From the NCBI RefSeq assembly GCF_000612545.2, contig NZ_CP097800.1, positions 7,432,001 through 7,496,000 on the forward strand: DNA of 64,000 bases. Direction: 5' to 3'. The translations under genes were made by a program, and so were the position numbers. This document shows positions 1-18,799 of this stretch, in pieces (position 1 is the stretch's first letter; every line of letters starts with the position of its first letter). Source of the stretch: Streptomyces sp. PCS3-D2. Lineage in GTDB: Bacteria; Actinomycetota; Actinomycetes; Streptomycetales; Streptomycetaceae. The notes beneath the pieces were generated by a model that ran no database searches, had not been told where the DNA came from, and saw only the letters and a program-made list of their open reading frames with translations.

Positions 1-622
1 CAGTCGGGGCCCGAGCCGGACATCATCGCAAGCGCCGTGTCGCCGGGCGCGCGCATCCTGGAACTGGGCTGTGGCGCAGGGTGCGTGACCCACCCGCTCC
101 TGGAACGGGGTTTCGGGGTGACGGCTGTCGACGAGTCCCAGGAGATGCTCGATCGCGTTCGAGGGGCACGCGCGATACACGGTGCGATCGAGGACCTCGA
201 CCTGGGCGAGTCGTTCGGCCCGGTGACGCTTGCGTCGTTCCTCGTACACGTCGGAGACATCGAAGTGCGGCGCGCGCTGCTGCGCACCTGCTCTCCGGCG
301 CCTCGCGGCGGACGGCTGTGTGCTGATCCAACGGGAGGGCGACGAGGACTGGCACACGAACCTGCCGCGCGAGCGTGTCGATCCCGGAGGTTTCACGGTA
401 CGGATCGTGTCGGCGGAGCCGACTGGCGACGGTGCGAACTCGGTGCACGCGAAGTATGAGTCTCCGGACGCCGTATGGACCCAGACGTTCGTGTCCCGGC
501 CGCTGACCGAAGAGCAGTTCAAGGAGGCTCTCGCAGAGGTGGGCCTGAAGGGAGACAGATACCTCACGCAGGACGGGACATGGGCACTGACGAGCCTCGC
601 GACGTATCCGCCGCGCCCGTGA
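1..622 (+). pseudogene. SAM-dependent methyltransferase, 5'-partial and frameshifted
   Basis: The reading frame is already open at the first base and shows a class I methyltransferase motif I (ILELGCGAG) followed by an acidic motif II region (GVTAVDESQEML), so it would bind S-adenosylmethionine. Around positions 280-300 the homology leaves frame 1 and continues in frame 2 (VLIQREGDEDW onward), ending at 622. One extra base explains the break. The rest of the N-terminus lies outside the window. The substrate cannot be told. It could be a real pseudogene or a base-calling error; other genes nearby are also frameshifted. Confidence 0.7.
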
Positions 623-855
623 AATCCGGTGCCTTGGCTGCGTTGCCCCGTTCGCTGCTCTCCGAAGGCGAACGAGTCAGGGCCAGCACCGCATGAGACA
701 GCCCCTTCGGCGCCGTACCGAACACGGAATCCGTCGATTGAACGGACGTCTCGATCGGGGGATTGCGAGCACTGCCCGGCCTGAGAGCAGAGCCCGGCGG
801 TATACGGGGAAATTCCAGGGGATCAGGCGGCCGCGCGCTGCTACGGTCGGGCGCT

Positions 856-1359
856 ATGAGCTGGCTCCCCGCGAACTTCGTGCATCCCGTCCTGGTCCCA
901 CTGCCAGGCAGTGGTCATCACCTGCGGCCGATCCGGGAGGCGGACACCCCGCTCGACTATCCGGCTGTGATGGGTTCGCGCGAGCGACTGTGGACCATCT
1001 ACGGCCCGGCCTGGGGCTGGCCCGCGGCCACCATGACCTACGAGGCCGACCGGGCCGACCTGTTGCGGCACGAGCAGGAGATCGCCGCACACCAGTCTTT
1101 CAACTACGCACTGTTCGACGCGGCGGAGACGGCTCTGCTCGGCTGTGTCTACATTGACCCACCGGAGAGGATCGGCGCGGACGGCGAGATCTCCTGGTGG
1201 GTGGTGGACGAGCTGGTGGACAGCAAGGTCGAGCAGGCCCTCGACGAACTCGTGCCACAGTGGATCGCCGCAGACTGGCCGTTCGAGCAGCCCCGCTTCC
1301 TCGGCCGAGAGATCTCCTGGCCGGACTGGCTCGCCCTGCCGGAGCACCCCGACGCGTAA
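856..1359 (+). CDS. GNAT-family-like N-acetyltransferase
   Basis: A 167-residue protein starting MSWLPANFVHPV. The section LRPIREADTPLDYPAVM, then a core ending in ALLGCVYIDPP and a WWVVDEL strand, fits a GNAT-type acyltransferase fold, which moves an acetyl group from acetyl-CoA to an amine. The acetyl-CoA loop is not a clean Q/RxxGxG/A, so the family call is moderate and the substrate unknown. The ATG at 856 was chosen over upstream starts because the conserved-looking sequence begins there; no strong ribosome binding site is visible. It is followed by about 470 bases without a gene. Confidence 0.65.
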   Translation: MSWLPANFVHPVLVPLPGSGHHLRPIREADTPLDYPAVMGSRERLWTIYGPAWGWPAATMTYEADRADLLRHEQEIAAHQSFNYALFDAAETALLGCVYIDPPERIGADGEISWWVVDELVDSKVEQALDELVPQWIAADWPFEQPRFLGREISWPDWLALPEHPDA

Positions 1360-1834
1360 GTGGCTGCCGCCGTCCCGATCCTGTGGGGCGCTGGTCGAAC
1401 GGGGACGCCGTTCAGGTGATCGCGGTGGGCTCCGGGCACGCAAGCAGGGGCCTTTTGGCAGGTGGGTACATGTCTACGCCAACGAGTACTCCAGGAGACC
1501 CTGTTGCCGCAGCTCTACGTTGTCGTGGAGGGCGGGTCCGGTCCGGTCACCCCGTGGTGCGGCTGTCTCGCATACCGGTTCGGGAAGGCCGCCGCGTCCC
1601 ACAGCCCATGACGCCGTGGGGATGTGCCCGCCACGAGGCCCCTCAGCGCTGCACGCGGCTCCGCCGAGCGTGACGGCCGGCCCGCCGTTCGCGGGTGGCG
1701 CTCCGCCGATCTGGTCGCTTGCCGCGTCATGATTCTGCTCGTTGCCCCACAGCTCGTTGCCCCACAGAACGGCCGATGAGTTCGCGGCTCGCGGCCAGTC
1801 CAAGCTCGCGACACCCCAAGAAAGGACCACCATC
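1360..1834. other. Intergenic stretch without a convincing gene
   Basis: No open frame here has the codon pattern of the neighbours. The only structure seen is a short direct repeat near 1739-1768, where the phrase CTCGTTGCCCCACAG occurs twice in tandem. A clear Shine-Dalgarno-like AAAGGA lies at 1821-1826 and serves the next gene. Confidence 0.5.
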
Positions 1835-2440
1835 ATGTCGGAGCTTCTCGTCGACTTCATCACCTCCCTCGACGGCCACGCATCGGGAGAAGGATGGCCT
1901 GGGTTCTGGGGCCTTGAGGGGCCGGAATACCTCGCATGGCTCGGTGAGCAGCCCGAGGCCACCTACCTGATGGGAGCGAACACCTACCGCCTGATGTCAG
2001 GCTTCGCCGCGGGCGAGGTCCCGAACGGCCAAGACGGGTTCAGGCCCGAAGAAGAGGCGTCCGTCGACGCGCTCACGCAAGCGTCCAAGGTGGTGTTCTC
2101 CTCCTCGCTCAAGGAGCCACTGACGTGGGCCAACTCCGCGCTCGTCCGCGACGACGCCGTCGAGGCGGTCCGCGCCATGAAGTCGAGCGGCTCGGGGCTC
2201 CTCAGCACCATCGGCAGCCTCAGCCTGTCCCGCTCCCTGCTACGAGCCGGACTCGTCGACCGCTTCCGGGTGGTGATGTTTCCGGTGATCACCGGGGCCA
2301 CGGGCGAAGAACGCATTTATGACGGCTATCCGGACGTTGCCCTGGAGATGATCGAGCACCGCACCTTCGACGGCCGCATCCAGCTGGTCGAGTACAGGCC
2401 CCGGGTGCTCGAGCACCCGCCGCTCGGCGCTCCTGCGTGA
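1835..2440 (+). CDS. Dihydrofolate-reductase-fold (RibD C-terminal-like) protein
   Basis: A 201-residue protein starting MSELLVDFITSLDGHASG, the typical first strand and loop of the RibD-C/DHFR superfamily. The YLMGANTYRLM stretch and the late GLVDRFRVVMFPVITG segment are the other hallmarks of the family. Members are NADPH-dependent reductases of uncertain substrate and are common as multiple paralogues in Streptomyces. The ATG at 1835 is preceded at good distance by AAAGGA, which settles the start. It looks intact. A role in folate or riboflavin synthesis cannot be claimed from sequence. Confidence 0.85.
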   Translation: MSELLVDFITSLDGHASGEGWPGFWGLEGPEYLAWLGEQPEATYLMGANTYRLMSGFAAGEVPNGQDGFRPEEEASVDALTQASKVVFSSSLKEPLTWANSALVRDDAVEAVRAMKSSGSGLLSTIGSLSLSRSLLRAGLVDRFRVVMFPVITGATGEERIYDGYPDVALEMIEHRTFDGRIQLVEYRPRVLEHPPLGAPA

Positions 2441-2614
2441 CCGGGCCGCGGCGGCCGGGGGAACGCAGCCGCGCCTACGGCCTCCGGAGGATGGACCAGC
2501 CGTTCTGACGAGATCGGGACACCTTCGGTTCCTCCGGTATGCGGCCGGTACAGGTGTTGCCCGTGACTGCGGTGTGGCGGATGCTGGCCCGAGCCTGGGA
2601 ATCGGGGGGAATCC

Positions 2615-5600
2615 ATGGCCGCGGTACGCGGGAGCGGAGTGCTCGACGCCTCGCAGGTACGGATCAGGGGCGCTGACGGCGAGGTCGTGGGCGCCGGATT
2701 CCTCGTCGCTCCGGACCTGGTGTGCACCTGCGCCCACGTCATCGGCCAAGCCCGCGGGCCGGCCCACGTGGGCGACCCTGCCACAGGGCCCGTGGTCCTT
2801 GACTTCCCGCTGGTCGAGGGCCGGCCCGCGGCCCGGGCGGGCGTGGTGTCCTGGCGCCACGCCGGCCAGGACGTCGCGCTCCTGCGGCTGGACGCACCCG
2901 TGGCGGGGACACGCCCGGCACCGCTCGTCGACGGCACCTCGGTCTGGGGCCACACGTTCCGCGCGCTGGGCTACCCGTACGGAGCCGACCAGGGCATCTG
3001 GGCATCCGGGGTGCTACGGGCCGGGCAGGGCTCCGGCTGGGTGCAGATGGAGGTCCGTGGGAGCGGTCCGACCATCGTGGGCGGGTTCAGCGGATCGCCC
3101 GTCTGGGACGACACCCAGGACGGCGTGGTCGGCATGACGGTTGCCGCACACCAGGGCGACCGCACCGCCTACCTGTTGCCCTCCGCCGACCTGGTCGACG
3201 GGCGGACGCTGCGCCCGCGCTGCCCGTTCCAGGGGCTGGCACCCTTCGCCGAAGACGGGGCGGAGTTCTTCCACGGACGCGACGACGACACCCGGCGGGT
3301 TTTCCGGGCGGTGTCGCGACGACCGGTCACCCTGGTCGTCGGCCCCTCGGGATGCGGTAAGTCTTCGCTGGTCAGAGCCGGAGTGCTGCCGAAGGCGCGA
3401 GGTGCGGGGATGGACGTCTCCGCAGTGCGCGCGGTACCCGGCGTACCGGCCGCCGCGGTGCTGGCCAGGGCCCTGACCGACCTGCTCGATCCCGCACCCG
3501 GTGAGGTGGAACGGCTCGCCCGGACGGAGAAACTGGCCCGGCTGTTGGAGGCGGGCCGTGACGTACCGGCCGAGCTACGGTCCCGGCTGCTGGCCCGGCC
3601 CGGCGCCGCGCCCGCCGGGCACCTGCTCTTCGTGGACCAGCTGGAGGAGTATGCGGTCGGCGCCCCCGAAGACGCCCGGGAGCTGTTCCGGCTGCTGGCC
3701 GCCCTCGCGGGCCGGGAAGGCGCCACACTGCTGCGGGTGGTGGCCACCGGGCGCCTGGGCTCGCTGGAGGCCCTGGTGACCCCGGAGACATCCGAACTGG
3801 CCGGAGAGGCCGTCGAGTTCCTCGCGCCCTTGGCTGGTGAAGCCCTGGAGCGCGCGGTGACCGCGCCCGTCGACGCCGAGCCCGGTCTGTGGTTCGAGCC
3901 CGGACTGCCCCAGCGGATCGTCGCGGACGCCGCCGACGCACCGGGGCGGATGACCCTGGTGCAGTTCGCGCTCACCCAACTGTGGGAACGCCGCAGCCGC
4001 TCGATGCTGACGCATGCCGTCTACGACGAACTGGGCGGTGTCGCGGGCGCCCTGGTCGGGTACGCCGACGAGAGTCTCGAGTCCCTGACGGATCGGGAGC
4101 GCCGCTCCGCACGACGGCTGTTGGTCCAGCTGGCCCGGCCCGAAGGAGACGGCTTCGTACGCAGGCCCACCCGAATCGGCGATCTGCCACCCGAACTCGT
4201 CCCGGTCGCACGGGAACTGGCGACGGGCAAGCTCGTCGTCCTCTCCCCGGCCCCGGACGGCTCCGGTGAGATCGTCGACCTCGCGCACGAAGCCCTCACC
4301 CGACTGTGGCTGCAACTGAACAGGTGGCTCACTGACACCCGCGAGTTCCGCACCTGGCAGGAGCAGTTGCGCACCGATCTGCGGCGCTGGGAGGCCCATG
4401 GGCGTGAGGCCGCCCGGCTGCTCGGCGGCACCGAGCTGGCGGAGGCACAGCGGCGCCTCGCCGACCATCCGGACGACACCACTGCCGAGGAGACCGACTA
4501 CGTCCGGCTGAGCACCCGGGCCGCCCGGCGCGGCGCCCGGATTCGACGCGCCGCCGTGGCCACGCTCGCCGCCCTGACCTGCCTCGCGGCGATCTTCGCC
4601 CTCCTCGCCTGGCAGGGGCTGCGGCGCACCGAGGACCAACTGCGCGTCCAGGCGGCCGGCCTGCTCGCCCTGGCGGCTGACGACATGCCGGGCCGCGAAC
4701 CGGCCACCGCGCTGCAACTCGCGCTCGCCGCCAGGAGCACCAAACGGACCACCAAGACCGCCGAGGCACTGCTGCGGCAGTACGTACGCCAGCCGGACCT
4801 CCTGCACTCCTACCCCTCCGTCTGGGAGGGGAACGTCAGCGGCATGGACGCCACCCCCGACGGCCGGACCCTGGTGGTTGCCGCCCGGCCCCTCGGGGGC
4901 GGCGACCGGTACGTGTTCACCCTGGTCACCGGGGCGCTCGACGGCCGGATCCGGACCCGGAGGCTGGGCGGAGAAGTGCAGGCACGGTACGAGAGCGCCA
5001 TCAGTCCCGACGGCCGCCTGTTCGCCGTGTCCTCGCCCGATGCGATACGGCTGTGGCGCCTCGACAGCCCGGACCACCCCGAGACGCTCCCGCTCCCCGT
5101 CCGTGAGCTGCCTGATGGCGCGGGCAGTTCCGTCGACTTCAGCTCGGACGGAACCCGCCTGCTGCGCACCCTCACCGACCACACGATGGAGTGCTACAAC
5201 GGGACCCGGCCTTGCGTGGCCGCGTTCGCCGACGCGTGGGAGGTGCCCTCCGGCCGGCGCCTGACCGTCGCCGCCGACCTGCTGCCCCGGACCCGTGTGG
5301 GGGAGGTCGCCTTCACCGGCGACGCCGATACCGTGGTCATGGGCATCTCCGACCCCAAGGCCCCGCAGCAGCTGACGGTCAAGGACCTCGCCAGCGGCCG
5401 GACGCTCTACACCGCGGGACCCTCCCCCGACGCAGCCGACGGGACGTTCGAACTCAAGGCGGGCGGCGAACTCGCCTTCTGGACCGAAGGAGGCCGGGCC
5501 TACAGCCGCCCGCTGGGCCGTACCCCAGGGGCGGTCACAGAACTGCCCTCGCTCGCGTCCCAGCAACGGGGGACGGAAGCATCAGGAGTCTACGAGCAGT

Positions 5601-6889
5601 ACGGGCCCGGGCTTGGCTATGAGGAGAGCACCCCGGGCGGTTACGCCGACACCGGCCTGCTCGATCTCGGCACGGGGCGGTACTTCACGGCCCGCCTTCC
5701 CAACCCCGGCGACGTTCAGGGCGCGCGCGGGGTTCTCGCCGTGGCGCCGGGCCCGGGAGACGGGATCGTGGTGCTGGTCCCCGTCGGGAACTCGCTCCTG
5801 GTGGTGGGCGCCGACTCCGTCGGCACCGCACGGTTCCAGGGCGGGGACACGTCCGACGGGGAGTACGCCCTGGCCCCGGACCGGGGGACGATCGCGCGCC
5901 TGACGCGCGACTCCCTCCAGGTACTGGACGCCGCCCGGACACACCACCGGTCCGTGGCCCTGACGTCGGACAAGGACGGCACTCGGGTCAGCTGGACCGC
6001 CGACGGCCGGTGGATCGTGGTCTGGCAGCGCGACGACGGCCTCTTCCGTGCCTACTGGACCGCGGATCTCGGCCGGAGCGTGGATCTGCCACGGCTCCTC
6101 AAGAAGGACGTCGTCGTCGACAGCCTCGTCGGCCTCCAGGGATCGGAGGTCGCGCTCCTCGGGTCGGACGGTACGGTGGCCCGCCTGGACGCGGCGACCG
6201 GAGAGGTCCTCACCCCCGCCTTCTCCGCCCAGGAGGACCCCGAAGACGCCGACCGCATGAGGGACATGTGGGGGGAGGGCCGGATCGTACCCAGACCGGG
6301 GCATCCGGGCCAGGTCGCCGTCGTCAGCCGGGCGGGCACCACGAACGGGGAGATCGGCCTGTGGGACCTGCGCACGCAGAAGCGCTTCGCCGCGCCGCTG
6401 CACGGCCTGGCGGTCGGCACGACGAGCACGACAATGCACTGGCACGGGGACACGATGGTCTTCAGCGCCGACGGGACCCGGCTGGCCGTGCTGCAGGGCG
6501 ACGGCCGGGTTCCTGTCTGGGACGTCGATGCCGGCAGGCAGCTGCCCGGCTCCGTCACGGTGCCCACCCTGACCAACCTGGTCGGCTTCGGGCCGGACGG
6601 CACCCTTTTGACCTGGAACGCCAAGACCCTCACCGTCCACGACCCAGAGCGGGGAACCGCCGTCACCGTCGAGGTGAAGCAGGCCTACGGCATAGAGGTC
6701 AACACGGCGACGGCCGCGGTCACGGCGGACGGCCGGCTGCTGCTCGAGGACGGGGAGCGGGCCCGCGTGCTGGACCTGCGGCCCGACGTCCAGTTCCGGG
6801 CGCTGTGCGCCGCCGCGGCACGCGACTACACCCAGGCCGAGCGGAAGCTGCTCCCGGACGGCACCCCCTCACACGCACCCTGCACCTGA
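2615..6889 (+). CDS. Trypsin-like protease / STAND NTPase / beta-propeller conflict protein
   Basis: A 1424-residue multidomain protein. Residues about 10-190 are a trypsin-like protease with a complete triad: His41 in CTCAHV, Asp86 in GQDVALLRLD and Ser159 in GGFSGSPVW. A STAND-type NTPase follows, with Walker A GPSGCGKSS at about 242-250 and Walker B LLFVDQLEE at about 336-344. A hydrophobic helix at about 646-668 is a likely membrane span. The remaining 750 residues carry repeated D-G-R/T strand motifs of a WD40-like propeller, probably the sensor. Such proteases are thought to be switched on when the propeller senses a trigger and the NTPase oligomerises. A GGGGGG run upstream supports the ATG. 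The next gene is its usual partner type. Confidence 0.9.
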   Translation: MAAVRGSGVLDASQVRIRGADGEVVGAGFLVAPDLVCTCAHVIGQARGPAHVGDPATGPVVLDFPLVEGRPAARAGVVSWRHAGQDVALLRLDAPVAGTRPAPLVDGTSVWGHTFRALGYPYGADQGIWASGVLRAGQGSGWVQMEVRGSGPTIVGGFSGSPVWDDTQDGVVGMTVAAHQGDRTAYLLPSADLVDGRTLRPRCPFQGLAPFAEDGAEFFHGRDDDTRRVFRAVSRRPVTLVVGPSGCGKSSLVRAGVLPKARGAGMDVSAVRAVPGVPAAAVLARALTDLLDPAPGEVERLARTEKLARLLEAGRDVPAELRSRLLARPGAAPAGHLLFVDQLEEYAVGAPEDARELFRLLAALAGREGATLLRVVATGRLGSLEALVTPETSELAGEAVEFLAPLAGEALERAVTAPVDAEPGLWFEPGLPQRIVADAADAPGRMTLVQFALTQLWERRSRSMLTHAVYDELGGVAGALVGYADESLESLTDRERRSARRLLVQLARPEGDGFVRRPTRIGDLPPELVPVARELATGKLVVLSPAPDGSGEIVDLAHEALTRLWLQLNRWLTDTREFRTWQEQLRTDLRRWEAHGREAARLLGGTELAEAQRRLADHPDDTTAEETDYVRLSTRAARRGARIRRAAVATLAALTCLAAIFALLAWQGLRRTEDQLRVQAAGLLALAADDMPGREPATALQLALAARSTKRTTKTAEALLRQYVRQPDLLHSYPSVWEGNVSGMDATPDGRTLVVAARPLGGGDRYVFTLVTGALDGRIRTRRLGGEVQARYESAISPDGRLFAVSSPDAIRLWRLDSPDHPETLPLPVRELPDGAGSSVDFSSDGTRLLRTLTDHTMECYNGTRPCVAAFADAWEVPSGRRLTVAADLLPRTRVGEVAFTGDADTVVMGISDPKAPQQLTVKDLASGRTLYTAGPSPDAADGTFELKAGGELAFWTEGGRAYSRPLGRTPGAVTELPSLASQQRGTEASGVYEQYGPGLGYEESTPGGYADTGLLDLGTGRYFTARLPNPGDVQGARGVLAVAPGPGDGIVVLVPVGNSLLVVGADSVGTARFQGGDTSDGEYALAPDRGTIARLTRDSLQVLDAARTHHRSVALTSDKDGTRVSWTADGRWIVVWQRDDGLFRAYWTADLGRSVDLPRLLKKDVVVDSLVGLQGSEVALLGSDGTVARLDAATGEVLTPAFSAQEDPEDADRMRDMWGEGRIVPRPGHPGQVAVVSRAGTTNGEIGLWDLRTQKRFAAPLHGLAVGTTSTTMHWHGDTMVFSADGTRLAVLQGDGRVPVWDVDAGRQLPGSVTVPTLTNLVGFGPDGTLLTWNAKTLTVHDPERGTAVTVEVKQAYGIEVNTATAAVTADGRLLLEDGERARVLDLRPDVQFRALCAAAARDYTQAERKLLPDGTPSHAPCT

Positions 6890-6966
6890 CTCGGGCATGC
6901 CACGATTCTGTAACCGGTCACCCGAACGGCGGGCCCGTCCACCGGTCCCGCCCGCACCATTCCTTC

Positions 6967-7338
6967 ATGACCAGTACCGAGGACATCAGCGAGACCATCG
7001 GCCTGGAGGACGCGTCCACCGTCCGTTTCCTCCTTTCGGGGCCCGCCACGGCGGCTCCGACGCCCGGTGAGGGCCTCGGCCCCGTCGTCCCCGTCGGAAG
7101 ACGGGCCGACGCGGTCGCCGCCTTCGCCACCGACGCGTTGCGCTCCACCCTGAAGCCGCTGGGGGCCCTCGTCCGCGAGGTCCACTCCGCCATGACCTCG
7201 GTGCCCGTGCCCCCCACCGAAGTCACCGTCACCTTCGGCCTCCAGCTCACCCAGGACCTCCAACTGGGCATCGTCAACGGCAACAACCAGGCACACCTGA
7301 CCGTCACGGCCAGCTGGACGCCGCCGGCGGCCGGCTGA
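6967..7338 (+). CDS. Trypsin-co-occurring (Trypco1-type) small protein
   Basis: A 123-residue protein beginning MTSTEDISETIGL. The second half, with EVTVTFGLQLTQDLQLGIVNG followed by HLTVTASW, matches what I recall of the Trypco1 family, small proteins found next to trypsin-STAND genes; the wording of the match is from memory. It lies 77 bases after the STAND gene on the same strand and is probably co-transcribed. Its likely role is as an adaptor, effector or protease substrate of the upstream protein, which is inference. No strong ribosome binding site is visible before the ATG. A hairpin follows downstream. Confidence 0.8.
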   Translation: MTSTEDISETIGLEDASTVRFLLSGPATAAPTPGEGLGPVVPVGRRADAVAAFATDALRSTLKPLGALVREVHSAMTSVPVPPTEVTVTFGLQLTQDLQLGIVNGNNQAHLTVTASWTPPAAG

Positions 7339-7481
7339 CCGTCCGCGAGGCGCACACGCCCGCCCGCCCGGCCGGCCGGGGCAGGCGGTCGGCGGCTCGG
7401 GCGCCCCGGGCCGCCATGACGGCGGCCAGGTCGCCCCTCCGGACCGCGCCCGCCGAGGCTTGGGGGCCGGCGGATACGCAG

Positions 7482-7513
7482 GGCCCGCCCGATCCGACGA
7501 TCGGGCGGGGCCT
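7482..7513. terminator. Hairpin terminator after the trypsin-STAND/Trypco1 pair
   Basis: An inverted repeat of about 12 bp, GGCCCGCCCGAT against ATCGGGCGGGGCC, with a six-base loop and a single bulged base. There is no T tract, which is usual for actinomycete terminators. It could serve both the rightward pair and the leftward acetyltransferase gene that ends at 7783. Confidence 0.55.
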
Positions 7514-7782
7514 CGCTCGTACGAGCCCTCAGATGAATCACGAAATCCCGCCGTAACGTCCAGGACCACGAACGCCGCCCGCGCAACTCCGAAGCCCATC
7601 TGACCTGGGCACACAACACACTCAGGCCCCGGCATTCGGTGTGCAAGGGGCCCCGCGCTGCATGGTCGAAGAACTAGCCTGTAGCGAAGAGTTGAGCCGG
7701 AGCGGTGAGACACCGCCGACGTCTGCACCGCCCCCGGCACGCTGCCGGTCCAGAATCGTCGTCTGGGCACTCAGACCGTCAG

Positions 7783-8322
7783 TCACTCAGACGGCGTGCC
7801 CGCGGACCACACGCCGAGCCACTGCTCGGCGCCGTAGTCCTCGAACCGCTCCACCTCGGTGAACCCCAGCTTCGCCGCGACCCGTATCGAGGCCTCGTTG
7901 GCGGTCTGGGTGGAGAGCACCACCGGCTCGCCGGTATGCGCGTCGGTGAACCAGTCAAGCGCAGCCGCGCATGCCTCGGTGGCGTACCCGTGTCCCCACG
8001 CCTGCGGCAGGAACATGTAGCCGAGCTCTGGCTCCCCGCCTTCCGGACGGATGTGACCCTTGCGCTCCGGGTCGCGCCGATCGAGCGTGACCATGCCGAT
8101 CGTTGCTCCGTCAAGCTCGACCACGAAGAAGCCGAAGCGCTGCCCGGGCACCTCTGGCATTGCGCGCTCAACCTCGTCACGCGGCCGAGCGCCACCGACA
8201 TAGGTGCCCACTTCTGGTGAGGCAGCCAGGTCGATCAGCGGCGCACGGTCCCGGGCCTCAGACTTGCGGAGCACGAGCCGCGCGGTCTTGATCGGGGCGG
8301 GTGGCCAGGCGACGGGGTGCAC
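7783..8322 (-). CDS. GNAT-family N-acetyltransferase (RimJ/RimL type)
   Basis: A 179-residue protein with the RimJ/RimL layout: KTARLVLRKSEARD near the N-terminus, a middle ATIGMVTLDRRD strand, GEPELGYMFLPQAWGHGYATEA with the acetyl-CoA loop, and the C-terminal NEASIRVAAKLGFTEVERF. It probably acetylates an N-terminal or small-molecule amine. I chose the GTG at 8322 because GGAGGGG sits six bases upstream of it; the frame stays open further upstream but that part is low-complexity and unlike the family. It is convergent with the STAND/Trypco1 pair. Confidence 0.88.
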   Translation of the reverse strand: MHPVAWPPAPIKTARLVLRKSEARDRAPLIDLAASPEVGTYVGGARPRDEVERAMPEVPGQRFGFFVVELDGATIGMVTLDRRDPERKGHIRPEGGEPELGYMFLPQAWGHGYATEACAAALDWFTDAHTGEPVVLSTQTANEASIRVAAKLGFTEVERFEDYGAEQWLGVWSAGTPSE

Positions 8323-8444
8323 TGCGATCCCCTCCGACGTGGAACGGCTCCTGACTCTCTCGGCCACACAGCTCAACCTCGTATGACCATGCGAGGGGGC
8401 GACGACTTCTGACGTCACCGCACACCGAGACGCGATCCCACAGG

Positions 8445-8931
8445 ATGCCGGTTGCGCGGGCGCTGGAGGCTGCGGCGGAGCTGGGGCTGGAGTACACCGA
8501 GCAGGTGCAGCAGGCTGGACAGGCGGCCTGGGATCAAGATCCGCGCACATCAGGGCGGCGCCGGGTGAACTTGATGGCTGTCTTCGATCACACGGCGCTC
8601 GTTTCCCTCTACCAGGCCGACCCGTTCTTCACCGGCCTGTACAACGAGTCCTGCCGGGGAACCGGGCGGGTCCGGCCCCGTCCGTCCTGGCCGCCGAGCG
8701 CACTGTGCCTGGTGCCGGCTCCCATGCCGCGCGCCTGCGGTTCGCCGAGACCGTGCCCTTTATCACGACCCACGCCCTGGACGCCGGCTCCTGGCTGACC
8801 ACCGAATGGACGGTGACGCATCCGGCAGCCATCGCCTGGCAGGGGGCGAAAACCGGGGAGCTGGTGACCGTGCGCTCGCTGACGCCGAGGCGTACGAAGG
8901 CACCGGAGTCTACCCGCTCAACCCGAGCTAG
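8445..8931 (+). pseudogene. Degraded antitoxin-like / PIN-like gene pair
   Basis: From 8445 a frame encodes a short helical segment (VARALEAAAELGLEYTEQ) and runs into MAVFDHTALVSLY at 8574, which resembles the start of a PIN-fold nuclease with its first acidic residue. The homologous reading then shifts frame near 8670-8690 (continuing LAAERTVPGAG, then HALDAGSW) and again near 8884 (AEAYEGTGVYPLNPS), ending in TAG at 8929-8931. The stop codon overlaps the TA used by the next mobile element. With two shifts the product is dead. The toxin-antitoxin reading is inference. Confidence 0.5.
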
Positions 8932-9029
8932 TGCTGTGACCGCATAGGTTCGCCGGGTTGCGGTTGGCGCTCGTGGTGGCTGGGCCGGTTGGATGTCGGG
9001 AGACGTTCAACGCAGTGTCGGGAGGCGTG

Positions 9030-10151
9030 GTGGCAGAGCCGGTCAAGGTCCGCAGACTGACCGATCAGGAGGGCCAGCAGTTACGGCGGATCGTGCGGCG
9101 GGGCAGTACCAGCTCGGTGCGCTACCGGCGGGCGATGATGTTGCTGGCCTCTGCTGGCGGCAACCGGGTGCCGGTCATCGCCCGGCTGGTGCAGGCCGAC
9201 GAGGACACTGTGCGGGACGTGATCCACCGTTTCAACGAGATCGGCTTGGCCTGTCTGGACCCTCGCTGGGCGGGAGGCCGTCTCCGCCTGCTCTGTCCTG
9301 ACGACGAGGACTTCGTCATCAAGACGGCCACCACTCGCCCGGCCAAGCTCGGCCAGCCCTTCACCCGCTGGTCGATCCGCAAACTGCTCGCCTACCTCCG
9401 TCGAGTTCATGGCCGGGTGATCTGCATCGGGCGCGAGGCCCTGCGCTGCCTGCTCGCCCGACGCGGCGTCACCTTCCAGCGCACCAGGACATGGAAGGAG
9501 TCCACCGACCCCGAGCGGGACGCCAAGCTCGACCGGATCGAGCATGTCCTGGAACGCTTCCCCGACCGGACGTTCGCGTTCGACGAGTTCGGCCCGCTCG
9601 GCATCCGTCCCACCGGCGGCAGCTGCTGGGCCGAACAGAGCCGCCCCGACCGCCTGCCGGCCACCTACCACCGCACCCACGGCGTGACCTACTTCCACGG
9701 CTGCTACTCGGTGGGCGACGACACACTGTGGGGTGTCAACCGCCGCCGCAAGGGCGCCGCGAACAGCCTGGCCGCGCTCCGGTCGATCCGCGAGGCCCGT
9801 CCCGACGGCGCCCCGATCTACGTGATCCTGGACAACCTGTCCGCCCACAAGGGCGCCAAGATCCGCCAGTGGGCCAGGCGCAACAACGTCGAGCTGTGCT
9901 TCACCCCGACCAACGCCTCCTGGGCCAACCCCATCGAGGCGCACTTCGGACCGCTGAGGCAGTTCACCCTCGCTAACTCCCACCACCCGAACCATACGGT
10001 CCAGACTCGCGCGCTGCACGGCTACCTGCCTTGGCGCAACGCCAACGCCCGCCAACCCGACGTCCTGGCCGCCAAACGCAGGGAAAGCGCCCGCATCCGC
10101 AGCGAAAAGGGCATCCGCTGGGGCGGACGCCCCCTTCAAGCCGCAGCTTGA
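9030..10151 (+). CDS. IS630-family transposase
   Basis: An intact DDE transposase of about 373 residues from GTG 9030, preceded closely by GGAGG at 9021-9025; TTG 8958 would add 24 residues. An N-terminal helix-turn-helix part (MLLASAGGNRVPVIARLV onward) precedes the catalytic core, with the first Asp in FAFDEFGPLG, the second in YVILDNLSAHKG and the Glu in NPIEAHFGPL. It would cut and paste the surrounding element into TA sites. A second, truncated and frameshifted copy lies at 40704-41663. This copy looks active. Confidence 0.92.
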   Translation: MAEPVKVRRLTDQEGQQLRRIVRRGSTSSVRYRRAMMLLASAGGNRVPVIARLVQADEDTVRDVIHRFNEIGLACLDPRWAGGRLRLLCPDDEDFVIKTATTRPAKLGQPFTRWSIRKLLAYLRRVHGRVICIGREALRCLLARRGVTFQRTRTWKESTDPERDAKLDRIEHVLERFPDRTFAFDEFGPLGIRPTGGSCWAEQSRPDRLPATYHRTHGVTYFHGCYSVGDDTLWGVNRRRKGAANSLAALRSIREARPDGAPIYVILDNLSAHKGAKIRQWARRNNVELCFTPTNASWANPIEAHFGPLRQFTLANSHHPNHTVQTRALHGYLPWRNANARQPDVLAAKRRESARIRSEKGIRWGGRPLQAAA

Positions 10152-10183
10152 CCGAATCCGGCTAAACCTGTGCGTTCACAGCA
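10152..10183. repeat. Internal IS630 end overlapping the phosphatase gene
   Basis: Read on the minus strand this begins TGCTGTGAACGCACAGGTTT, an imperfect copy of the outer terminal repeat with a few substitutions and a one-base insertion. It lies immediately after the transposase stop, where an ordinary IS630 would end. No TA follows it. It also encodes the last residues (about PAVNAQV) and stop of the phosphatase gene on the minus strand. Confidence 0.6.
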
Positions 10184-10974
10184 GGGCTGCGGATCATCGA
10201 CATCAGCAGCCCATGGGTCTCGGCGTCAGCGGCCACTACAAGCCCCCGGCCTGCCTGACCGACAGGGGCGCCGTCGATGCCGGTGACTACGCAGCCGGCA
10301 GCCCGGCACAGAGCGATGCCGGCGGCGAAATGCACGCTCCCGGACAGGTCGCCGCCGTCAGTGACGTACGCGGCGCGCTTGCCGGCCGCGACCCAGGCCA
10401 ACGCCAGCGTCGTGGACACGACCCGCGGCCGGAACCGCTCGACGAACTCAGGGTGGGCCAGCAGGTCCACGGCTCGGAATCCGGGCGCGCTCGGGAACGG
10501 CGGATCCAGGTTGACGTCCACCAGCCGGGTGGCGGGCGTGGGTGCCAGTTGCTCATCGATCCCGTCGTGCCGCACCCAGGCGGTCTCGCCGTCGGTGAAG
10601 AAGACCTCGCCGCTGGACGGGTCGGCCACCGCCGCCGCCCCGTCGCGCAGCGCCACGTTGACGGCCACCAGCATGTTGCCGACGGCGTAGTTCAGCGTGC
10701 CGCACAAAGGATCCACCAACCACTGGCGCACAGTGTCGGCCGCACCCTGCTGCCCACCTTCCTCCCCGAGAACCGCGTCATCGGGCCGAGCAGCACGGAT
10801 GACGCCGAGGATCGTCTCCTCGGCCTCCACGTCGGCTGCGGTGGCGAAGTCACCGGCGCCCTTGTCAATGCGGGTGAGCCGCTGGCCGTACATGTTGCGC
10901 ACCACGTCCGCGCCGGCACGTGCCCCAGCTATCGCAACCTCAGCATCGTCCGAACTCGCGTATGAGTTGATCAC
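10162..10974 (-). CDS. Inositol monophosphatase-family protein
   Basis: A 270-residue protein with the metal-binding motifs of the family: a GDFATAADVEAE motif, EE in VLGEEGGQQG, WLVDPLCGTLNYA, and the late GGDLSGSVHFAAGIALC. Family members hydrolyse phosphate from inositol phosphate, histidinol phosphate or related small molecules with Mg2+. The final codons and stop lie inside an IS630 end, so the natural C-terminus was probably replaced on insertion, but only slightly. The start is a GTG at 10974 with a weak ribosome binding site. The gene lies between two IS630 ends and may be carried by them. Confidence 0.85.
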   Translation of the reverse strand: MINSYASSDDAEVAIAGARAGADVVRNMYGQRLTRIDKGAGDFATAADVEAEETILGVIRAARPDDAVLGEEGGQQGAADTVRQWLVDPLCGTLNYAVGNMLVAVNVALRDGAAAVADPSSGEVFFTDGETAWVRHDGIDEQLAPTPATRLVDVNLDPPFPSAPGFRAVDLLAHPEFVERFRPRVVSTTLALAWVAAGKRAAYVTDGGDLSGSVHFAAGIALCRAAGCVVTGIDGAPVGQAGRGLVVAADAETHGLLMSMIRSPAVNAQV

Positions 10975-11003
10975 GCCGTGCAGAATATCGGGGCGAAGCC
11001 ACC

Positions 11004-11032
11004 AACCCGGCGAACCTATGCGGTCACAGCAC
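11004..11032. repeat. Outer right IS630 terminal inverted repeat
   Basis: This is the exact reverse complement of the left end at 8931-8959, and it is followed by TA. The same end sequence also starts the truncated IS630 copy at 40704, so it is the authentic left-end sequence of this family present in inverted orientation. Confidence 0.75.
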
Positions 11033-13016
11033 TAGCCGGGACGCGGCGCCTGCCTCAGCAGGCTCTGGCAGCATTCCTCGCCGCGGCTGCAGGCAGTGCA
11101 TTGGTCAGCGCGGCGCGCAGCTGTTCGTCCTCGCGGATCATCGCGTGGTCGGACCCGTAGACGACCAGGCGGCGGTCCCGGGCCGTCAGCGCGGTCAGCT
11201 GGTAGTGCTGCTCTGGCGTCAGGGTGGTGGAGCCGAGCCCCGCAGGGCGTCGCTGGCGCCCTTGAGGTCGGCGCCGGTCTCGGCCGAGTGCAGCGCCGCC
11301 TCGGCGAGCCGGGTGCGGTCGAGGCTGGTCGGATCGGCGACGGCGAGCAGTCCGAGGACGGCGGACGGCGCTTGGGCCGGGTCCTCGAGGAGAGTGTGGA
11401 GCCGGTCGGTGAGCGGGCGCCCGTCCGGGCCGAGTACGGCGATCTCGCGGGCGGCGCGGGCGGTCGTCCAGTGTGACCACTGCTGGCCTTCGCTCCTGTC
11501 GAAGACCGAGGCCAGCACAGGGACGGTTCCGGATGCCTCCCCGGTGATGCGCCACAGGGCGAGCACCAGGGCGAGGTCGGTGTCGATCTCCGCCGTGGTG
11601 TCGCGGTCGGTGGTGCGGGCGAGCGCCGTTCGCAGGGCGGGGGCGATGCGGGCGGCGGCCGGGCCGAGGTCGGCCAAGGCGTTGGAGGCCTCGACGCGGC
11701 CGCGGACACCAGTGGCGAGCGCCGCCTCGGCGGCGAAACAGCGGCCTGGTTTCATTGGTCAGTCCGTGCAGTGCCTGGGCCACGAGCAGCTTGTCGGCGT
11801 CGGCCCGCAGGGCTGTGGCGGCCTGCTCGCGCTGCTCCGGCCCAAGGCCGGCGGCGACGGAGGCGATGGCGGTGGCAGCGTAGTGGAACCGAGGCAGGAT
11901 GGCGCAGAGTTCGGGCAGCGCCCGGGCGGCCTGGGGCCCCACAGCCTGAGCAGGTGGACCAGCCCGGCGGTGTCGTTGTGGTCGGCGTTCGCCGGGCAAC
12001 CGCAGTCCTTGCGTCCCTCGGGTCCCTCCAGCGCCTTGGCGGCCAGGCGAGCGCGGACCGCGGCGAGCAGTTCCGGGTCGAACGGGAAAGGCACATGGGC
12101 CGGGGCGGAGGACCCGGTGGTGCACTGCATGGCGTGCGGGCTTCGGCCGAGAGCCCGGGCTGGCAGCGGGGCGACGGTCTGAGGTGCCACCAGGACGAGT
12201 GCGGCGGCCCTGGTCGGACGCCTCGTCGTCCGGTTGCGCGGCGAGTTCGGCGAGGAGGGGCACGGCCTCGGCGGCGGCCGGGCCGATCTTGCCCAGTAGC
12301 TGGGCGGCCGTGCGGTCGGCGGCGAGTGGGGCGATGGCGGGGATCAGCCGTTTGCGGGGCGCTGCGGGACAGCATGCAGGCGCGGTCGGCCGCCCACAGC
12401 GCCTCGGCCCGCACATCCGGGCGCTTGTCGCGCAGCGCGGTGTCGAGGAGAGTGAGGGCGCTGTCGCGGTCGGCGTCGGTGTCCCGCCTCAGGAGAAGCT
12501 CGACGATGGCGCTCAGCGGTTCCCAGTGCTCCTCCGCGTAGCCGGTTGCGGCCGTCGCGTGGGCGGGCAACAGGCCGAGGGCGGCGTCATGGGGCGATGC
12601 GAGCCACGGCTCCTGGGGGCCCAGGGCGGCGAACAGGGCGGCCAAGCGCAGCGGTGCGGGCGTGTCCGGGCCGAGCAGGGCGAGGCTCTCGGCGACGGCG
12701 CCTGCACGGTCCAGCCGGCTGTACGCGGTGAGGAGCTCAGCCCGGACGACGGGCTCGGTCTCGGCGGTCAAGCGGGTCCGGACAGCGGGCAGGGCAATGC
12801 CCGTGTCTCCGGTGTGGCCGACCGGCCGGCTGGCCGCTTGCCGGACGGCGGCGTCCTCATCGGCCAGCAGCGGTATGAGCAGCGGCAGCTGGGTGGTGAC
12901 GGCGGCGCGGTGCCTGGATCGACGTGGTGCTCGTCCTCGCTCTCGGCGAGGCAGCCGAGCAGCCGCAGCGCGTCGACGGTCTGCCGGCCGCAAGCGGCGA
13001 TGCGGGCGAGGTAGTA

Positions 13017-14350
13017 CTGCAACCGCATGTGGGGGTCCTGGCCTCGGCGTTGGTAGTGGCATCGGCGGGCTCGGGCCTGGCTGCGGCGTCGGAAGTGTGA
13101 CCAGTGCAGACGGTGCTCGTTGCTGTGGCAGCGGGGCGTGACGACAACGTGCCCGATCATCCGGCGGATTTCCGGGACGCTGAGGGGTATGAGGTCTTGC
13201 TCGTCGTCCCCGCTGCCCCTTTTGCGGCTTCCGCGGCGCGAGTGGCGGTCAGGTAGGCGAGGGCGGCCATCGCGAGGGTGATGTGCCGGTACCAGGCTCG
13301 GTAGAGGCGGACCTGGTAGTGGTCCAGGCCGCACTCGCCCTTGGCGATCTGGAAGCACTCCTCCACCTGCCACCTCGCGCCTGCGGTCCTGACCAGGTCT
13401 TTCAGTCGGGCCGTGGCGGGACCGTAGCAGACGTAGTAGGCGATCTCGCTGGGGTCGCTGATGCAGCGGCGGGCCAGGACCCAGTGCCCGAAACCGTCCT
13501 CCCACTGCGGGCGGATCGCGATCCGGGCCCAGTCGTAGAACCGCTGGCCGTGCGCGCCCGCACCGGCGGAGATCCGTTTCCATGCCTGCCGGGGCATGGC
13601 GGTGATCAGGTCCCGGACCTCGGTGTCCGTGCCGCCGGTGGTGGTCACGGTGTCGTTGACCTTGGTGGCCAGCACGTAGGCGACGTGTCGCTCCTCCAGC
13701 CAGGCCCGTAGGTGCTTGACCTGGCCGTATGCCTCATCCGCGGTGACCCAGGCGAAGGGGACGCGTGCGTCGATCGCGCGTTGCAGCATCCACTTGAAGT
13801 GCTCGATCTTCGTGGCGAAGGGCACCTCGTCGCCGATACCGGCGGCCCGGCACCGTTCCCGGTCATCGGTCCAGGAGACGGGGACGTACAGTTCGCGGTC
13901 GATCAAGGCCCGGCCCGTGGCGGAGGCGTAGGCCAGGAACGTGCCGATCTGGCAGTTTTCCGTGCGTCCGGCCGTGCCGGAGTACTGCCTTTGGAACCCG
14001 GCGGACTTGACGCCCTTCTTCAGGAAGCCGGTGTCGTCCCCGATCAGGACCGCGTCCTTGCTGCCGATCGTCTCGACGACGAAGTCACGCACGTCGTCGC
14101 GGACCGCATTCTCGTCCCAGTCGGCGAAGTTCAGCAGCCGCTGGAAACCGTCCGGGCGACGCTGGCCGGCCTGCTCGGCCAGCGTCCACCCGTTCTTCCT
14201 TTCCAGCGGCGCGAGCAACGTGCTCAGGTAGTCCAGAGCCCGTTCACGAGGCTCCGACCTGCCAAAACGCCCCGCGAACCGGGCATGAAGCCCGACTATC
14301 CCCTCGGACCAGTCCTCGATCTGCGCGACCGTCAGCGATTCATCACACAG
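13017..14350 (-). pseudogene. IS701-family transposase, frameshifted near the C-terminus
   Basis: The frame is open from about 14350 (LTVAQIEDWSEGIVGLHARF) and contains VLIGDDTGFLKKG, AFAWVTADEAYG-like and RWQVEECFQIAKGECGLDHY segments, which hold the expected acidic residues of the DDE core. No ATG or GTG lies at the conserved N-terminus; CTG at 14350 or a TTG at 14218 are the only nearby starts. Near 13215 the homology shifts frame (DDEQDLIPLSVPEIRRM) and reads to the end of the IS and on into the host gene, so the IS supplies no stop codon of its own here. Confidence 0.75.
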
Positions 14351-14399
14351 TCAGCCCAACGACCAAGGCGACGACCAGTCACACCACATGCGGTTGCAG
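13017..14399 (-). mobile_element. IS701-type insertion sequence
   Basis: A 1383-bp element with 16-bp perfect terminal inverted repeats (CTGCAACCGCATGTGG at the left, its complement at the right). It is flanked by a 5-bp duplication, TAGTA, at 13012-13016 and 14400-14404. It sits inside the HEAT-repeat gene, and precise removal rejoins that reading frame. One transposase gene is inside. Confidence 0.85.
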
Positions 14400-14608
14400 T
14401 AGTAGGGGGCGGCGTCGGCGCTGGTCGCGTACACGGTGCCCTGGTGCACGATCGAGCTGTACAGCTCCTCCAGTGCGTCCTCGGCGTCCTCGCCGCCTTC
14501 GGCGAAGGTGCGCAGCAAGTCGGGCAGGTCTTCGGCGGGGCCGTAGGCGTGGTTCACGGTGGCCCAGGGGTGGGCGTCGAGCCCGGCGAGGGCGGTGGGG
14601 AGCTCCAT

Positions 14609-15123
14609 GGCCGTGAACTTCGCAGGACCTCTGACATGTGCCGAGGGCCCGAGGAGTGAGGCGGACACCCGGAGGTGGACAGGGGAGTCCGCTCGCCAGG
14701 CAGCCGCCAGATCGGTGGGTTCACGCCAATGTGGCTTGAGTACGCCCGGCGCACCAGGGGGCGCAAAGGGCGCACCATCTGTTGTCGATCTGTGCTCTAC
14801 GTCACACGCGCCGATAGTGTCGCGGCGAACTTCCAATGGGCAAAGAGAACGGCAGTCCTCCGGCGGCACAGCGTTAACGCAGGTCAAGCTGAGGCTGTCA
14901 AGTCAAATGGGGCAGCAGCACTCAGGGGAGGGCAACTCTGTACGTCTGTGCGAGTTCTGAGTGACCGATGGGTAACAGCCGGCTAAAACTTTTTGGTCAA
15001 CGGCCGTCTCCACGAACGGGCCACTTAGCCCGCTTTGCTGTTCCACGAGAGCAACCGCACTCGGAGCGCCGCCCGGGGAAACGGCACTCACCCCCCTTCA
15101 AGCATGAATAGGACCACCACCCT
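14609..15123. other. Intergenic stretch upstream of the sigma-factor operon
   Basis: About 515 bases between the divergent HEAT pseudogene and the small gene at 15124. No gene is seen. The stretch around 14980-15000 (AAAACTTTTTGG) is unusually AT-rich for this DNA and could hold promoter elements for the rightward operon, but no clear -35/-10 pair is evident. Confidence 0.4.
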
Positions 15124-15309
15124 GTGATGAACCACGACGTGGCCAGCCTGGCGCTGGCCCTGGCCGCCGCCGGACGGGCCTTCGCTCCCGACGCGCGGGC
15201 CCTGCTGCGGCGGCTCCTGGGTGCCGGCGTCCGAGTGGGAGCAGCAAGCCTGGTCGAGAAGCGGGAAGCGGCTCGCCCCGAGGCGCTGGACGAAGGGAGC
15301 CGGTCGTGA
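15124..15309 (+). CDS. Small helical protein preceding a sigma factor
   Basis: A 61-residue Ala/Arg/Leu-rich protein (MMNHDVASLALALAAAG) predicted to be helical. The start is GTG 15124 or ATG 15127. Its stop overlaps the GTG start of the sigma-factor gene by four bases, so the two are probably translationally coupled. I do not recognise a family. Position suggests a regulator or partner of the sigma factor; that is inference only. Confidence 0.55.
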   Translation: MMNHDVASLALALAAAGRAFAPDARALLRRLLGAGVRVGAASLVEKREAARPEALDEGSRS

Positions 15310-15911
15310 CGGAGCAGCCCCCAGCCGACTCGGCCGGTACACGCGAACCCAGCCAGATCATGCCCAACGCCTACTGGGCCTTCCTCGCCCTCCACCACAA
15401 GCCCTACCTGGAGTACGCCCGGGTGCTGCTGGGGAACGAGGAGGAGGCCGCCGACGCTGTCCACGCCACCTTCGTCCACCTCGCCGCGATATGGGCGCAC
15501 CTGACGATGCAGCCCAACATGGCTGCCTACGCGTGGGCGCAGCACAAACTGCTCGTCGCCGACGAGCTCATCATCAGCGGCCGTGAACCGGCTGCAAGTG
15601 CGACGATGGCGTTCGACCGCGCCACCCGCGCCGCGACCTCCGCGGTCCTTCGCGACTTTCGCGAACAGTTCCGGGCGCAGATGGACGAGCTTGAGAACAG
15701 CATCGGTCTGTATGCGGCGATGGACCGGCTTCCGGAGCGGCAGTTCGATGTCATGGTCTTGTGCTACGCCCTGAAGTACACCACCAAGCAGAGCGCCGAC
15801 ACGATGGGCATCACGCCTGCCACTGTCCGCACCCTGCGCTGCAGCGCACGCCGCAGGATCGCCAAGGAAATGGGCCTGGACATCGAACTGGGCATCGAAG
15901 ATGAGGAGTGA
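15306..15911 (+). CDS. ECF-like sigma-70 family RNA polymerase sigma factor
   Basis: A 201-residue protein. Region 2 is seen at about residues 33-60 (YLEYARVLLGNEEEAADAVH) and region 4 near the C-terminus (RLPERQFDVMVLCYALKYTT, then an ITPATVRTLRCSARRRI helix-turn-helix). It should direct RNA polymerase to a specific promoter set. No classic anti-sigma gene with a membrane span is adjacent; instead overlapping genes of unknown function lie on both sides (15124 and 15901). The GTG start at 15306 overlaps the previous stop. Confidence 0.85.
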   Translation: MTEQPPADSAGTREPSQIMPNAYWAFLALHHKPYLEYARVLLGNEEEAADAVHATFVHLAAIWAHLTMQPNMAAYAWAQHKLLVADELIISGREPAASATMAFDRATRAATSAVLRDFREQFRAQMDELENSIGLYAAMDRLPERQFDVMVLCYALKYTTKQSADTMGITPATVRTLRCSARRRIAKEMGLDIELGIEDEE

Positions 15912-16647
15912 TGAGTCCGTGCCCTACACCCCCCGCGCCGTTGACGACCTGCTGGCCCGCGCCAGGGTCTTCCAGGACGACTACACGCCCGCTCACCTCG
16001 AAGCAGCCCGCGAACGCCTGATAAGCCACCTCACCGAGGCGCGCTGGGGCCACATCCTGGCCGGCGGCCCCACCGTTCCCCCCGCCCCGGCCAGCCGGCC
16101 GACAGCCCTGCACGAACAGGCTGCCCACCAGCTGTGGGCCCTGTCCCAGAACGTCATCACCGACACCGAGGCCGCCGACCACATCGCCCGCTTCCAGGAC
16201 GCCCGTGATCCCGGCGGCGCCCTCGCCTTCGCCTGCCTCCTGGACCTCGCCCACGTCGAGGACGGCGCCCAGTTCTGGTGGCAGTTCGCCGCCGGAGCCG
16301 GCAACCCCACCGGCGCCCTGTGCCTCTACCTCCTCCACCTGCGCCGCGGTGAAATGCGCGATGCCAGCCACTGGGCCAGCCAGATTGGCCAGCTCGAAGA
16401 AGCCGACGACGGCGACATCACGCACTACCGGCCGGTGACCCACGAACAGACCCACCCCACCGCCCCCGCCGCCGGCATCACCATGCGCTATGAGACCCGC
16501 ACCGCCCCCGACGACATCTCCGTCTCCGACGAAGCCGTCAAGGACACCGTCGAACAACTCGGCATGGACCGGCACGAGGAACTGGGACGCATCCTCACCC
16601 CCACCGCAGAACTCGCGAAACAGGTCGAGGAACTCGCCACACACTGA
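15901..16647 (+). CDS. Unknown protein encoded with the sigma factor
   Basis: A 248-residue, Ala-rich, mostly helical protein. A middle section (GNPTGALCLYLLHLRRGE) recalls Sel1/TPR-like helical repeats, while the C-terminus (DEAVKDTVEQLGMDRHEELG) is acidic. It overlaps the sigma gene by 11 bases if ATG 15901 is used; GTG 15919, with AGGAG at 15903-15907, is a good alternative start. I do not recognise the family. It may set the activity of the sigma factor, which is inference from gene order. Confidence 0.7.
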   Translation: MRSDESVPYTPRAVDDLLARARVFQDDYTPAHLEAARERLISHLTEARWGHILAGGPTVPPAPASRPTALHEQAAHQLWALSQNVITDTEAADHIARFQDARDPGGALAFACLLDLAHVEDGAQFWWQFAAGAGNPTGALCLYLLHLRRGEMRDASHWASQIGQLEEADDGDITHYRPVTHEQTHPTAPAAGITMRYETRTAPDDISVSDEAVKDTVEQLGMDRHEELGRILTPTAELAKQVEELATH

Positions 16648-16721
16648 CCGCGACGGACCCGGCCGCGTCGCCCGAGCGGCGGCGCGGCCGACCACGGCCA
16701 CGACACGCGGTTCACACTGCC

Positions 16722-17730: not shown

Positions 17731-17891
17731 CCTCCCGGCCTTCGTCGTGGGAACGTGTATTCCTTGGTCGGAGCACATGATCAGGCGAAGGCCGCCCCCA
17801 CGTCCGGCGAATACCCAGGTGAGCGAACCCGTTCGAGACCCCGTTCGGGATCGTGGCACCATGTACGCCATGACGACCAACCGAAAGGTCC

Positions 17892-18686: not shown

Positions 18687-18799
18687 GAGGCTGTTGTCTT
18701 TCCGAGTTTGATGACGGCGTTTTCGCTGGTCAGGGGTAGTGGTGGCGTCCGTGTGGGAGTGATGGATCGTTGTTTTCGTCGCTCTCGTGGAGGTCGCGG

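Follow-up and report, generated by a model that had tools for sequence, protein, structure and literature searches.

What does the small Trypco1-type gene behind a large trypsin-STAND gene in Streptomyces sp. PCS3-D2 do for its neighbor, and do the two genes belong together at all? We examined the pair in a stretch of 64,000 nucleotides (the window), at 7.432–7.496 Mb on a 7.51 Mb contig of the 7.63 Mb genome. Trypco1 received its name from Kaur et al. (2020, PMC7159879), who noted it as a frequent neighbor of trypsin genes in VMAP systems; the passages of that paper that treat it give no mechanism. A tested role for Trypco1 was not found in the literature searched; the open PMC literature likewise yielded no description of a trypsin-nSTAND1 and Trypco1 pairing, of the downstream order or of a swap, and no papers on the CU044_2847 family by name.

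Domains and predicted topology of the two proteins

The large gene (Table 1) is intact over its full length, with zero internal stops. A sequence-only reading had described its product as a trypsin-STAND-propeller protein with a His/Asp/Ser triad at residues 41, 86, and 159 and Walker A and B motifs, and this description holds: Pfam places Trypsin_2 and nSTAND1 domains in the protein, and propeller-type matches, scoring under the curated cut-offs, in its C-terminal half. The triad residues stand in the contexts CAHV (H41), GQDVAL (D86), and GFSGSP (S159), which together with the domain match identify a trypsin-like (S1/Trypsin_2) peptidase. The nSTAND1 match is near full-length (profile positions 1–378 of 379) and contains Walker A (GPSGCGKS, from aa 243) and a Walker B-like motif (LLFVDQ, from aa 337), as befits an nSTAND1 NTPase. 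The triad is no chance pattern, since histidine, aspartate, and serine occupy the three columns in 51 of 52 trypsin-nSTAND1 proteins labeled by script as Trypco1-paired, a count that still includes loci fetched twice. An Arg-type P1 specificity was considered and dropped; the residue six positions ahead of the serine, itself a positional guess, is Thr in the window protein, and relatives mostly have Ala, Arg, or Pro there. Apart from weak matches, the genome has one other strong nSTAND1 gene, which appears HTH-led when its sequence is inspected by eye and in which trypsin was not found.

Table 1. Features of the trypsin-nSTAND1 and Trypco1 locus, with positions in the window unless a locus is named
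Feature	Position	Strand	Details
Two-gene cassette common to the window and Streptomyces cirratus (L233)	2507..7346	+	blastn 87.2%, 4844 aligned bases
Trypsin – nSTAND1 NTPase – predicted transmembrane helix – beta-propeller protein	2615..6889	+	1424 aa
Trypsin_2 peptidase domain	2690..3136	+	aa 26-174, with H41, D86, S159; Pfam E 9.5e-14
nSTAND1 NTPase domain	3224..4411	+	aa 204-599; Pfam E 6.9e-81
Predicted transmembrane helix	4550..4618	+	aa ~646-668, Arg-rich N-terminal side; Kyte-Doolittle 19-residue window up to 2.42
Beta-propeller region	4775..6886	+	aa ~721-1424; predicted outside; fastest-evolving part
Intergenic motif GCCACGATnnnGTAAC	6899..6914	+	seen by eye; kept in several relatives
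Trypco1 protein	6967..7338	+	123 aa; subfamily usually accompanying trypsin-VMAP
Own-genome trypsin-VMAP gene	L229:8991-11144	-	near 2.567 Mb

The predicted transmembrane helix lies between the NTPase and the propeller, and a corresponding segment is present in 66 of 67 distinct trypsin-nSTAND1 open reading frames of at least 1100 aa. Net positive charge is higher on its N-terminal side in 65 of these 66 proteins and equal on both sides in the remaining one. Under the positive-inside rule, the more positive side of a membrane helix is cytoplasmic, and based on hydropathy and charge the trypsin and NTPase are therefore probably cytoplasmic, with the propeller outside the cell. The sensor would thus be a receptor rather than a cytosolic sensor. 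PknD-type receptor kinases have the arrangement predicted here, a cytoplasmic enzyme, one helix, and an outside propeller; PknD is a kinase whereas the window protein is a protease and NTPase, and we claim no relationship between the two.

Mean identity to the window protein is 39–42% in the propeller as against 66–69% in nSTAND1 and trypsin (20 rows, in which one two-gene locus was entered twice and one truncated protein counts as zero in the propeller), and omega between the window and S. cirratus is 0.29–0.36 in the propeller, as compared with 0.17 in trypsin and 0.15 in nSTAND1. Such variability fits the sensor role earlier proposed for the propeller, although its location would be outside the cell. 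Of 21 aligned clade rows, 18, 19, 20, and 20 retain cysteines 860, 867, 1398, and 1423, respectively; as the pairs 860/867 and 1398/1423 they are weakly suggestive of disulfides formed outside, cysteines of the inner half also being conserved.

The small protein matches Pfam Trypco1 (PF19493; E 9.2e-17, 61.9 bits against a cut-off of 24.6) and the NCBIfam CU044_2847 family (E 5e-14). Family searches found no further family match and no enzyme domain, and no PDB relative of Trypco1 had an E below 0.3. The gene is under constraint in comparisons with both S. cirratus (dN/dS 0.058/0.281) and Streptomyces sp. NBC_00158 plasmid L043 (0.079/0.315). It is the one Trypco1 of the PCS3-D2 genome, in which Trypco2 was not found. 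A trypsin open reading frame lies near Trypco2 in 19 of 25 loci (L327–L351), and the Trypco2 helix and LEFxVEL pattern resemble Trypco1. Treating the two as a single family was not accepted, a profile comparison giving a suggestive P of 0.004 and a probability of just 8%.

A 77 bp gap (6890–6966) separates the large and small genes, which share the + strand. Within it, GCCACGATnnnGTAAC recurs in several relatives despite differing gap length and is absent from others (12 sequences compared); it may serve the small gene as a promoter or operator, perhaps giving it a transcript of its own.

The usual setting of Trypco1 and the reversed cassette

Trypco1 matches occur in 143 of 200 sampled family genomes. 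From these we drew on 80 fetched regions, chosen not at random but 40 each from a ranking by likeness to the window protein and from one by the Pfam model, and searched them with iterative trypsin, nSTAND1, Trypco1, and propeller profiles that started from the window proteins. A trypsin gene lies immediately 3' of Trypco1 on the same strand in 69 of the 81 Trypco1 hits, at center distances of ~0.3–0.65 kb, the regions spanning at most 19 kb; of the other 12, seven had no regional trypsin hit and five had trypsin elsewhere. Pfam analysis of ten neighbor proteins identified eight trypsin-VMAP-C partners and one trypsin-NACHT partner (L111), the tenth being an AAA protein encoded one gene over and not a partner.

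A second, named set, with some loci in common with the first, comprised the best 80 of 121 relatives of the small protein, nearly all from Streptomyces. A trypsin gene adjoins Trypco1 in 75 of these 80 loci, with Trypco1 directly upstream in 68. The order Trypco1 then trypsin-VMAP accounts for 65 of the 80, and in two Trypco1 precedes a trypsin open reading frame without a visible VMAP-C or nSTAND1 domain. Trypsin-nSTAND1 stands upstream of Trypco1 in eight, one of which also has a downstream copy, and no trypsin was found in five, one cut by a contig end. At 39 of the 80 loci, Trypco1 and the trypsin open reading frame are in frame with just one stop codon between them, and the likely trypsin start lies one codon later. 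The small gene of the window also adjoins a trypsin-domain gene, and its downstream position is the reverse of the usual order. The expectation of the sequence-only reading that such small genes are enriched beside trypsin-STAND genes thus had a mixed outcome: enrichment is strong beside trypsin genes generally, including trypsin-nSTAND1 (the downstream trypsin frame also holds nSTAND1 in 19 of the 81 regional hits), but the closest relatives of the window's small protein, in the best 80 of 121, mostly adjoin trypsin-VMAP.

The pairing in the window is nevertheless a conserved one, and the small co-directional partner first proposed for this locus was recovered with its Trypco1 assignment intact. 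Excluding copies fetched twice, the order trypsin-nSTAND1 then Trypco1 was found in 11 distinct loci including the window, the others being those of Streptomyces sp. NBC_01276, L192, S. cirratus, Streptomyces sp. GESEQ-35, S. canus, S. caniscabiei, S. alfalfae, S. fumigatiscleroticus, S. griseoflavus, and S. gelaticus. The GESEQ-35 locus has the arrangement STAND-Trypco1-STAND. Between window positions 1–20000 and the 18.4 kb S. cirratus locus, blastn found no match other than the two-gene block. Plasmid L043 (NZ_CP108162.1) matches only window positions 6843–7345; its matching segment (L043:9001-9504) retains the final 47 bases of the large gene, followed by the gap and the complete, intact small gene, and no trypsin gene was found in the 18.5 kb fetched. 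The small gene there adjoins a convergent gene with HEAT-repeat matches, and we infer that L043 carries a decayed cassette. Both the S. cirratus and the L043 matches stop just 3' of the small gene. These cassette edges and the 11 loci of the same order rule out a chance adjacency of two unrelated genes; the large and small genes moved as one block and probably constitute a mobile two-gene module.

Other arrangements and mobile elements were observed in passing. The L188 locus (= L234) is a STAND-Trypco1-STAND tandem, which could represent an intermediate in the shift of Trypco1 from upstream to downstream. Trypco1 is also downstream in other trypsin clades (L214, L223), in which tandem arrays occur as well (L213, L218). 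Close to the cassette, the window contains two genes for transposases of the DDE_3 and DDE_5 types (8958–10151, +; 13157–14218, -), and in S. canus most of the first has an 80.6% identical counterpart (L235:3302-4393) just 5' of the cassette.

Trypco1 pairing is frequent among trypsin-nSTAND1 genes and is not obligatory. In the 40 regions around the nearest of these genes, taken from the top of the match list from 393 genus genomes, Trypco1 was present in 23 (15 upstream, 5 downstream, and 3 mixed) and was not found in 17, including the nearest by sequence, L184. One of three plasmid trypsin-nSTAND1 loci opened had Trypco1 and two did not. Neither Trypco1 nor trypsin occurred beside any of 14 nSTAND1 genes lacking trypsin, controls picked partly by annotation from the first 60 of 125 plasmid records and imperfectly matched to the test set (plasmids and stretches of at most 12.6 kb vs. 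genomes and stretches of up to 19.5 kb). In the fetched flanks of clade members L184, L185, L187, L189, L225, L191, and L226, the last two being shortened, Trypco1 was not found, nor was it in those of clade neighbors L194 and L207. At least one Trypco1 was present somewhere in 12 of 12 genomes searched, compared with the proportion given above for the family sample. The protease may not need Trypco1, as 22 of 23 trypsin-nSTAND1 proteins labeled unpaired retain an intact triad. Trypco1-less proteins are interspersed with Trypco1-bearing ones in the trypsin tree, also between members of the window clade, so repeated loss or repeated gain has to be assumed.

Discordant trees and the origin of the partner

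Distances between Trypco1 proteins correlate with those between their trypsins (r = 0.747, 159 distinct pairs), and the correlation rises to 0.934 when the window clade is left out (148 pairs; best of 500 permutations 0.111). Restricted to nSTAND1 pairs, r is 0.313 with the window clade (48 pairs) and 0.825 without it (37 pairs), and the clade on its own gives 0.669 (11 pairs; best permutation 0.540). In each of the two paired-sequence trees, all 11 clade members group together (support 0.971 and 0.991). Their sister group in the Trypco1 tree comprises 35 sequences, all paired with a trypsin open reading frame that lacks nSTAND1 (node support 0.799); in the trypsin tree it is one trypsin-nSTAND1 protein (low node support of 0.424) within a larger trypsin-nSTAND1 group. 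Discordance of this kind is the pattern expected if the clade's ancestor had its Trypco1 replaced. The best reading of these trees is a partner swap, by which the clade combines an nSTAND1-type trypsin with a VMAP-type Trypco1 in the downstream position, and the Trypco1 of the window is probably not the ancestral partner of the large gene. To account for the Trypco1-less relatives between clade members, subsequent losses have to be added, or else multiple gains from a single source.

With which domain Trypco1 travels is clearest in the VMAP systems, where its distances follow trypsin (partial r 0.893, 104 pairs) and not VMAP-C (-0.123). In 37 nSTAND1 pairs they are no better matched to trypsin (r = 0.755) than to the NTPase (0.776), and similar values hold for the 11 swap-clade pairs (0.738 and 0.778). 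The alternative that Trypco1 tracks the STAND NTPase is left undecided by these nSTAND1-pair distances and is disfavored by its presence beside 0 of 14 control genes, by the VMAP contexts, and by the single NACHT context. Because neighboring genes are inherited together, matched trees are no proof of contact, and this co-inheritance accounts for part of the match. We give somewhat less than an even chance to the fuller proposal that protease and Trypco1 form an exchangeable cassette, in which the receptor-protease lost its own Trypco1 and recruited a VMAP-type one and in which protease–Trypco1 contact is the functional unit.

Known systems and the possible role of Trypco1

Several described systems resemble parts of the locus. 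The trypsin-VMAP MoxR-vWA ternary systems of Kaur et al. (2020), as far as described in the sections concerned, share with it the Trypco1 family, the kind of trypsin, and side-by-side actinobacterial genes, whereas the regulator in the window is nSTAND1 with a transmembrane segment and a propeller, and Trypco1 is downstream. Pfam found no VMAP-C domain in the large protein, which separates it from the MoxR-vWA-VMAP ternary systems; the genome has two VMAP-C matches, near 1.51 and 2.57 Mb. The N-terminal-peptidase STAND proteins of Kaur et al. (2021, PMC8195603) similarly combine trypsin, a STAND NTPase (including nSTAND1), and a C-terminal sensor, and the relevant passages treat FGS-type C-terminal domains and mention neither a transmembrane propeller nor a Trypco1 partner; the term "trypco" does not occur in the text of that paper.

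By analogy, the closest tested precedent is the set of AVAST and HamMAB protease pairs, whose genetic logic is that of the window pair. According to the pertinent sections of Tuck et al. (2025, PMC12799240), trypsin forms a fusion there with HamA, an AVAST protein, or LmuA, and this protease cleaves its partner after isoleucine; the partner has a gene of its own, typically upstream, the trees of the two match, and pairs transfer between systems. AVAST type 1 and HamMAB resemble the window pair in the N-terminal trypsin fusion, in encoding the partner separately, in the agreement of the trees, and in movement between systems, but the partner in those systems is an MBL nuclease (42 kDa HamM, ~45.8 kDa Avs1a) rather than a 123-aa Trypco1 protein. 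In PADLOC only the trypsin part of the large protein matched, weakly, to RT-Protease_XI (E 3e-6) and Avs1b (E 1e-4), and the small protein had no match. The Avs1b match is partial (aa 22–122 against positions 16–107 of 1924), the AVAST type 1 profile score is 18.1 bits against a cut-off of 1500, and the partner is Trypco1 and no MBL nuclease; the locus is thus not an AVAST type 1 system.

The sequence-only reading did not include the predicted transmembrane helix, the cassette as a unit, or the unusual pairing with its reversed order. With these added, we consider it rather likely that the locus is a mobile receptor-protease module, in which an outside ligand throws an NTPase switch, trypsin is activated, and the protease acts on or through Trypco1. 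The large protein would span the membrane once and bind its ligand with the propeller; the nSTAND1 NTPase inside, probably by clustering, would then turn on the N-terminal protease. Trypco1 would be a dedicated partner of the protease domain and not of the NTPase, taken over from a trypsin-VMAP system in the window clade and now encoded downstream of its partner. A defense function of the cassette is presumed.

How the activated protease would use Trypco1 admits several answers, and since Trypco1 shows no enzyme domain an adaptor or inhibitor is kept beside a substrate. By analogy with the AVAST and Hachiman protease-substrate pairs, Trypco1 may quite possibly be the substrate of the protease, although the odds fall short of even. 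It is less probable that Trypco1 is a cofactor or adaptor, presenting other substrates or tethering the protease to a complex. Its switching between regulator classes would suit such a role, and Trypco1 is called an adapter domain in a passage of PMC10907252, but no observation here calls for a third protein and the block common to the window and S. cirratus contains no third gene.

We regard as unlikely that Trypco1 is an inhibitor or pro-domain that silences the protease, antitoxin-like, until the receptor fires and releases it. The usual upstream position, by which Trypco1 is made first, and the one-stop-codon spacing seen in about half of the best 80 of 121 loci, which favors 1:1 production, agree with silencing, as does the small protein's having family matches to Trypco1/CU044_2847 alone. 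Yet Trypco1 is downstream in the window clade, behind the 77 bp gap in the window itself, and an essential antidote, unless supplied in trans, fits poorly with the seven clade members and two neighbors without it in their flanks. Very improbable, finally, is the idea that the window Trypco1 serves a trypsin-VMAP protein elsewhere: it belongs to the VMAP-associated subfamily, and PCS3-D2 has a single Trypco1 and one trypsin-VMAP gene (L229) in whose 19 kb of fetched surroundings no Trypco1 was found, but adjacency to the trypsin-STAND gene is kept in all 11 loci, both genes moved as one block, and the L229 trypsin, disfavored as a client, lies in a distant part of the tree away from the trypsins paired with this subfamily.

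For the receptor-protease module, the predicted outside sensor leads us to expect ligands at the cell surface, such as phage adsorption, envelope damage, or neighbors. The role of Trypco1 is directly testable with the swap clade, the sister trypsin-nSTAND1 proteins with upstream Trypco1, and the Trypco1-less relatives. If the module is as proposed, it would be a bacterial receptor that converts an outside signal into intracellular proteolysis, and its clade would be a natural partner-swap experiment.
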